Source of the DNA: Arthrobacter sp. B1805
GTDB taxonomy: Bacteria; Actinomycetota; Actinomycetes; Actinomycetales; Micrococcaceae
Assembly (NCBI RefSeq): GCF_002929745.1
Contig: NZ_PJIQ01000006.1
Coordinates: forward strand, 1 to 64,000
Reading direction: 5' to 3'
DNA: 64,000 nt
In this document: in pieces, positions 1-1,231 of the stretch
How positions within the stretch are numbered: position 1 is the first letter of the stretch
How the letters are laid out: each line of letters begins with the position of its first letter
The notes under the pieces: generated by a model
Databases searched by the model: none
Told to the model about the DNA's origin: nothing
The model's input: the letters and a program-made list of their open reading frames with translations, nothing else
Translations under genes and position numbers: made by a program

Positions 1-194
1 TCCTTGGAGAGCTTCGGGATGGTGCCGAACTGGCCTGTCGCGCGGGCTTCTGCCAGCTGCGCGAGGGCGTCGTTGGCGCCCTTGACGTAGGTGGCCTGGT
101 GCTTGGAGTGGTGCAGCTCCATGATCCGGCCCGAGATGTGCGGCTCCAGGGCCGCGTAGTCGTAGTCAAGATCCGGCAGTACGTATTCGCTCAT
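1..194 (-). CDS. sodA: Superoxide dismutase (Mn/Fe), N-terminal part
   Basis: This is the first 64 codons of an iron/manganese superoxide dismutase, which converts superoxide to hydrogen peroxide and oxygen in the cytoplasm. The gene runs off the left edge. The protein opens [18 protein letters not shown] and then carries [17 protein letters not shown]. This holds the first metal-ligand histidine (E. coli SodA His26 equivalent), the active-site gateway His (His30) and Tyr (Tyr34), all conserved. The ATG at 194 is preceded by a good ribosome site (GAGGAG). It is followed, in the opposite reading order, by flavin reductase and soxR genes on the same strand, an oxidative-stress neighbourhood. 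Metal preference cannot be judged from this half. Confidence 0.96.
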
Positions 195-754: not shown

Positions 755-785
755 ACGCTAGAACCTGAACAAAGGTTGAGGTCAA
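755..785 (-). promoter_or_regulatory. SoxR-type promoter with 19-bp spacer and SoxR box
   Basis: Read on the minus strand, a -35 element TTGACC (785-780) and a -10 element TAGCGT (760-755) are separated by exactly 19 bp, the long spacer typical of MerR/SoxR-activated promoters. The spacer holds an 18-bp palindrome at 764-781, CCTCAACCTTTGTTCAGG. It matches the E. coli SoxR box pattern CCTCAA-N6-TTGAGG with one mismatch. The -10 ends 7 nt before the flavin reductase ATG, so the transcript may be leaderless or nearly so. Confidence 0.8.
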
Positions 786-790
786 ATCGG

Positions 791-1231
791 TCAGGAGTCG
801 AGCAGCGTCGAGCGGATGCCCTTCGATGCCGCGGCATCGTCCGGGTTGACGAAGCCGCAGGTCGCGAGCGAAAGACACCCGCAGCCGATGCACCCGCCCA
901 GTCGGTCGCGGAGGTGTTCCAGCTGGGCGATGCGCCTGTCGATCTCCTGGTGCCAGGTCGCCGAGAGCCGCTGCCAATCCGCCTGGTCCGGCACGCCGTC
1001 CTTCGGGAGCTCCGCGAAGGCGGTGGCGACCGTCGCGAGGGGGATACCAGCGCGCTGCGCCGCCGCGATCACGGCTACCCTGCGCAGCACCGAGCGGTCC
1101 TACCGGCGTTGGTTGCCAGCGGTCCTTCGGCTGTGGATCAGGCCCTGGCGCTCGTAGAAGTGCAGCGCGGAGACGCTCATGCCGCTGCGCGCGGCCACCT
1201 GCCCCACCGAGAGATCCGGGTCGTTCGGCAT
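791..1231 (-). pseudogene. soxR: SoxR-type MerR regulator interrupted by in-frame TAG
   Basis: This frame encodes a complete SoxR except for one stop codon. SoxR is a [2Fe-2S] MerR-family sensor of redox-active compounds. From the ATG at 1231 (SD AAGGAG) it reads [19 protein letters not shown], then [17 protein letters not shown] and TAGNQRR. Codon 44 (1102-1100) is TAG where E. coli SoxR has Tyr in NQRRYKRD. The frame then continues DRSVLRRVAVIAAAQRAGI and keeps all four cluster cysteines in CIGCGCLSLATC before a normal stop at 791. TAC to TAG is a single-base change. The product as read would be a 43-residue HTH fragment. Restart at GTG 1090 would give a protein without the DNA-binding helices. 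It is a recent nonsense mutation, a readthrough case or a base-call error. Confidence 0.9.

Follow-up and report, generated by a model that had tools for sequence, protein, structure and literature searches.

An amber codon interrupts the assembled soxR reading frame of Arthrobacter sp. B1805 beside a predicted SoxR operator

Gene content of the soxR locus

The window analysed here is a stretch of 64,000 nucleotides (bases 1-64000 of contig C67, NZ_PJIQ01000006.1) from the 3.80 Mb genome of Arthrobacter sp. B1805, which is assembled in 79 contigs. Near its start, all on the reverse strand, we detected a gene for an NmrA-like NAD(P)-binding protein (1326-2183), a soxR reading frame with one internal stop (791-1231; established by translation, profile search and alignment with relatives), a putative SoxR-type operator/promoter (763-785) and a flavin reductase gene (226-747; PF01613) that is the predicted SoxR target. 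Another 31 bp behind the flavin reductase lies the 5' end of a gene that, judging from its sequence, we take to encode a superoxide dismutase (3-194) and that is cut by the contig end. With soxR, a candidate SoxR-dependent promoter, the flavin reductase and the superoxide dismutase gene, the locus appears to be an ordinary actinobacterial SoxR module. The NmrA-like gene is a frequent neighbour that precedes soxR in 14 of 18 genus loci, and the dismutase gene follows the flavin reductase in 8 of the 18 and is absent there in the other 10.

The 5' end of the dismutase gene occurs twice in the genome, in the window (3-194) and at the start of contig C60 (C60:3-194, L235), as near-identical copies of about 200 bp. 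Both contigs end inside the gene, and the repeat probably broke the assembly.

A single internal stop in soxR

The soxR frame comprises 146 codons and a terminator, and its translation contains one internal stop, a TAG at codon 44 (1102-1100, reverse strand). Scored as a whole, with an X at the stop, the frame reaches 200.5 bits against the SoxR equivalog model TIGR01950 (cut-off 116.9). Taken separately, residues 45-146 reach 131.4 bits and residues 1-43 reach 56.0 bits. All four cysteines of the CX2CXCX5C motif that holds the [2Fe-2S] cluster are present (CIGCGCLSLATC), and the preliminary description of a full SoxR with its four Fe-S cysteines is thereby borne out. The stop falls between the two Pfam domains, the MerR helix-turn-helix (PF00376, residues 8-43), which lies in the 43-residue N-terminal piece before the stop (1103-1231, reverse strand), and PF09278 (residues 49-114), so that no uninterrupted frame joins the DNA-binding and sensor parts.

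As the same description had stated, the amber codon is the sole visible lesion: the translation of 791-1231 contains no second one, and the alignment, in which relatives are collinear over up to residues 1-145, revealed no frameshift. Identities of 77-92% to 18 SoxR genes of the genus show that the frame is not a chance ORF. It also resembles Escherichia coli SoxR (PDB 2zhg/2zhh), with which it is collinear over residues 7-145 (2zhg, E 1.6e-43) and shares the four cysteines and the MerR-type helix-turn-helix, but it differs in being interrupted at codon 44, equivalent by the alignment offset to E. coli residue 49.

An alignment with related soxR genes had been proposed as a check, and none of the 103 related loci carries a stop at codon 44. 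At this position 84 of them encode Tyr and 19 encode Phe (counts pooled from two collections that share some species, so that the rows are not independent). Codon 44 had been described as a conserved DNA-binding Tyr; the sequences point instead to a conserved aromatic residue, with a putative role in DNA binding, rather than a strict Tyr.

SoxR in the genome, the genus and the family

The genome search gave one soxR match and no second SoxR; its four other hits (29-31% identical) are probably other MerR-type regulators. Within the genus, SoxR was detected at E <= 1e-20 in 23 of 38 genomes and not found at that threshold in the other 15, a few of which are incomplete; just one of 24 matches, that of B1805, has a stop. 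In the family, 139 of 295 genomes have a SoxR match at E <= 1e-25, and among the matches listed B1805 is again the only one with a stop. The closest SoxR proteins among named relatives are those of Arthrobacter agilis, A. bussei, A. ruber, A. cheniae and A. echini, and B1805 probably belongs with these species.

Two database records drew attention by their names. The record WNZI01000070.1 (L076), titled 'Vibrio cholerae strain 35D', contains an Arthrobacter-type soxR locus (87% SoxR identity, gene order alike) and appears to be mislabelled or contaminated. The record NZ_JADHDY010000006.1 (L095), titled Sporosarcina beigongshangi, encodes a SoxR that is 74% identical to the Arthrobacter SoxR of B1805, and its name or the contig may be wrong.

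The predicted operator and its regulon

SoxR-dependent promoters follow a 19-bp spacer rule. Between soxR and the flavin reductase gene we identified the palindromic sequence TTGACCTCAACCTTTGTTCAGGT (763-785, reverse strand), which departs at one position from the clade pattern used for the search; a -10-like TAGCGT comes after it at 19-bp spacing (counted by eye). This putative operator is flanked by the -35 and -10 elements, which are separated by a 19-bp spacer, and its position is kept in relatives. With up to three mismatches allowed, it is the sole match that the genome yields, in a search that is blind to boxes with more than three and in which the reversed-pattern control gave 0 matches.

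Across the genus, a box with at most one mismatch is present in 20 of the 23 SoxR-containing genomes and missing from all 15 others (Fisher p 5e-8, ignoring relatedness). The reversed-pattern control matched in 7 of the 38 genomes, so matches with two or three mismatches are not evidence. The box sits in the gap between soxR and the flavin reductase gene in the 18 genus loci (of 23) in which the two genes adjoin; in three of the loci (L011, L014 and L017) it was missed by the strict pattern and recovered with one mismatch, and the -10-like letters differ in a few of the 18. In one genus genome (G013) the box precedes soxR instead of following it.

The preliminary description held that, if the stop is real, the sensor was lost while its target promoter was kept. 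The promoter does appear to be retained, with an intact operator at 763-785. The claim as a whole has to be narrowed, since one box in the genome (at up to three mismatches) means that probably a single operon is affected.

Selection on soxR and the age of the stop

Compared with 14 relatives, the soxR frame has a dN/dS of 0.034-0.143, ratios that are rough because the synonymous distances are high (0.58-1.02). The corresponding values are 0.091-0.180 for the flavin reductase gene (14 relatives) and 0.095-0.224 for the NmrA-like gene (13 relatives). Besides the stop, the B1805 protein has five private residues in an alignment of 15 sequences, and the six relatives counted have 0 to 5. These values are compatible with the recent origin proposed for the stop: soxR was constrained until very recently, and a new mutation or a wrong base would fit alike.

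An older decay, with soxR long non-functional and the rest of the module going the same way, would accord with the losses of SoxR that seem to happen in the genus, given the 15 genomes in which it was not found. Just 10 nonsynonymous differences stand against 59 synonymous ones to the nearest relative, no second lesion has accumulated and the operator is intact, and we consider such a decay scarcely credible.

Translation past or after the amber codon

The gene could still work if the amber codon were read through, yielding a full-length protein, or if termination at codon 44 were followed by a restart at codon 48, yielding SoxR in two pieces. Tolerance by readthrough had been suggested for this locus, a suggestion that the tRNA complement does not support. 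The 46 tRNA matches in the genome were all passed to ARAGORN and gave 45 distinct tRNA sequences, none of which has the CUA anticodon of an amber suppressor. An alternative code with a reassigned TAG was rejected, as TAG is an ordinary stop that terminates 64 of the 173 called genes on contig C67.

More can be said for a restart. Codon 48 is GTG in B1805, where the 18 closest relatives within the genus have GTC or ATC; a TAGGA sits 7 nt upstream of it, and the anti-Shine-Dalgarno pairing energy before it is -5.7, compared with -5.0 as the median for called gene starts. The location of the stop between the two Pfam domains would also suit a two-piece protein. The possible restart ORF (791-1090, reverse strand) would encode 99 amino acids with the PF09278 region and the Fe-S cysteines but without the N-terminal helix-turn-helix. 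The site may nonetheless be due to chance, for an upstream site of equal quality precedes 17% of the internal GTG/ATG codons in a sample of 3000, and 36% of valine codons are GTG. Codon 48 is also GTG in two of five more distant genus SoxR genes, which have no stop at all, and a split SoxR is absent among the matches listed in the genus and family searches. We therefore regard a still-working gene, by either route, as improbable. The more specific version of a two-piece soxR, in which the helix-turn-helix peptide (43 residues) and an Fe-S/dimer piece (99 residues) would reassemble, or the latter would act as an Fe-S protein freed from DNA binding, strikes us as very improbable.

Frame breaks on the contig

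Genes of contig C67 were matched to genes of relatives at >=60% identity with a codon-position filter, and the flagged places were viewed by eye. The comparison with one relative (G003) covered 132 matched genes (48,165 residues) and flagged two with internal stops and five with split frames. One of the two stop flags is soxR and the other a gene whose stops precede an intact same-frame ORF of the contig, which leaves soxR as the only clean single-stop lesion found among the 132 genes. With a second relative (G024), 139 genes were matched, six flagged with stops and six with split frames; soxR escaped this comparison because the filter picked an overlapping frame, which shows that genes can slip through it. 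An unfiltered comparison of all ORFs with both genomes was swamped by the shadow frames of GC-rich DNA, and a third genome (G002) is not collinear with the contig in the compared region. Apart from soxR and the permease described below, the flagged places correspond, as judged by eye, to an intact contig ORF matching the relatives or to a start-extension effect, with one exception (C67:120046-121075), whose ORF is not among the four considered.

A TAG at C67:79014, in a codon for Gln in the extended frame of relatives, resembled another amber lesion but was rejected because it lies in leader RNA, within a c-di-AMP riboswitch (RF00379, 51.1 bits, cut-off 38; C67:78857-79032) before the ATG at 79038 of a LysM-NlpC/P60 gene. 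Riboswitch and gene together (C67:78857-79979; L154:18857-19979) give the impression of an N-terminal extension that is conserved and carries an amber codon.

The contig also carries an amino-acid permease pseudogene (C67:182600-183900; L160:2600-3900). Compared with two related genomes, its 5' end is replaced and it shows several small indels; it is preceded by sequence that resembles the end of what is presumably a uracil phosphoribosyltransferase gene. Split frames in G024 (L178-L190) were seen against 13 of 143 C67 genes and 15 of 135 G003 genes, more than in other pairs, which suggests that the G024 assembly is indel-rich.

A base error as an alternative

A base-call or consensus error would mean that soxR is intact in the cell and that the TAG exists in the assembly alone. 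The constraint on the frame and the retention of its single genomic operator favour this reading, and indeed a retained operator and a low dN/dS are expected equally if soxR is intact and the base wrong. The assembly is a draft of 79 contigs with a 100-N gap in contig C67. How many errors such a false stop would imply can be calculated. Of random substitutions in the C67 genes, 2.7% create a stop, so that one false stop would be expected from about 37 errors in about 145 kb; by the same arithmetic, a consensus of about Q36 would produce one false stop per about 145 kb of coding sequence, but at Q50, a more usual consensus quality, only about 0.04 would be expected. The flagged places on the contig show no scatter of errors, and the codon is some 1.1 kb away from the contig end, in a gene with a single match in the genome. 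Because some 37 errors in about 145 kb would be needed per false stop, we favour a real mutation, and rate an error as less likely yet a serious alternative.

Discussion

The explanation we consider best, with moderate confidence, is that soxR of B1805 is a very recent null allele, which arose through one nonsense codon either in the isolate itself or not far back in its ancestry and which leaves one operon without its activator. It is supported by the stop in the assembly, the lack of a second SoxR among the genome matches, the intact operator and past purifying selection. Under such a null allele, translation would end after 43 residues and no Fe-S sensor able to bind DNA would be made. The flavin reductase promoter, with its 19-bp spacer, would then show no more than basal activity in the presence of redox-active compounds, and the flavin reductase/dismutase operon, predicted from the 31-bp gap, would lose its only recognisable activator, the promoter remaining.

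Single-nonsense pseudogenes of bacterial regulators, with one stop in an otherwise constrained frame, are a known class. The B1805 gene is like them and unusual only in its retained and unique target operator; we see here either an error or an ordinary allele, with a single nonsense codon, of a known regulator, in a context that is tidy and not surprising. The SoxR of Streptomyces coelicolor, as described in PMC4146615, likewise controls a small regulon with oxidoreductases among its members. Six target genes are reported there, whereas B1805 has one box in the genome and an interrupted regulator gene. A non-exhaustive set of literature titles and abstract openings made no mention of a broken Arthrobacter soxR.

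Whether null allele or error, the locus leaves current understanding unchanged. If the base is wrong, the result is a one-base correction to the public assembly. If it is real, B1805 would be a natural soxR null with a seemingly one-operon regulon still in place, and would offer a convenient background for the roles of SoxR, the flavin reductase and the extra superoxide dismutase in Arthrobacter.
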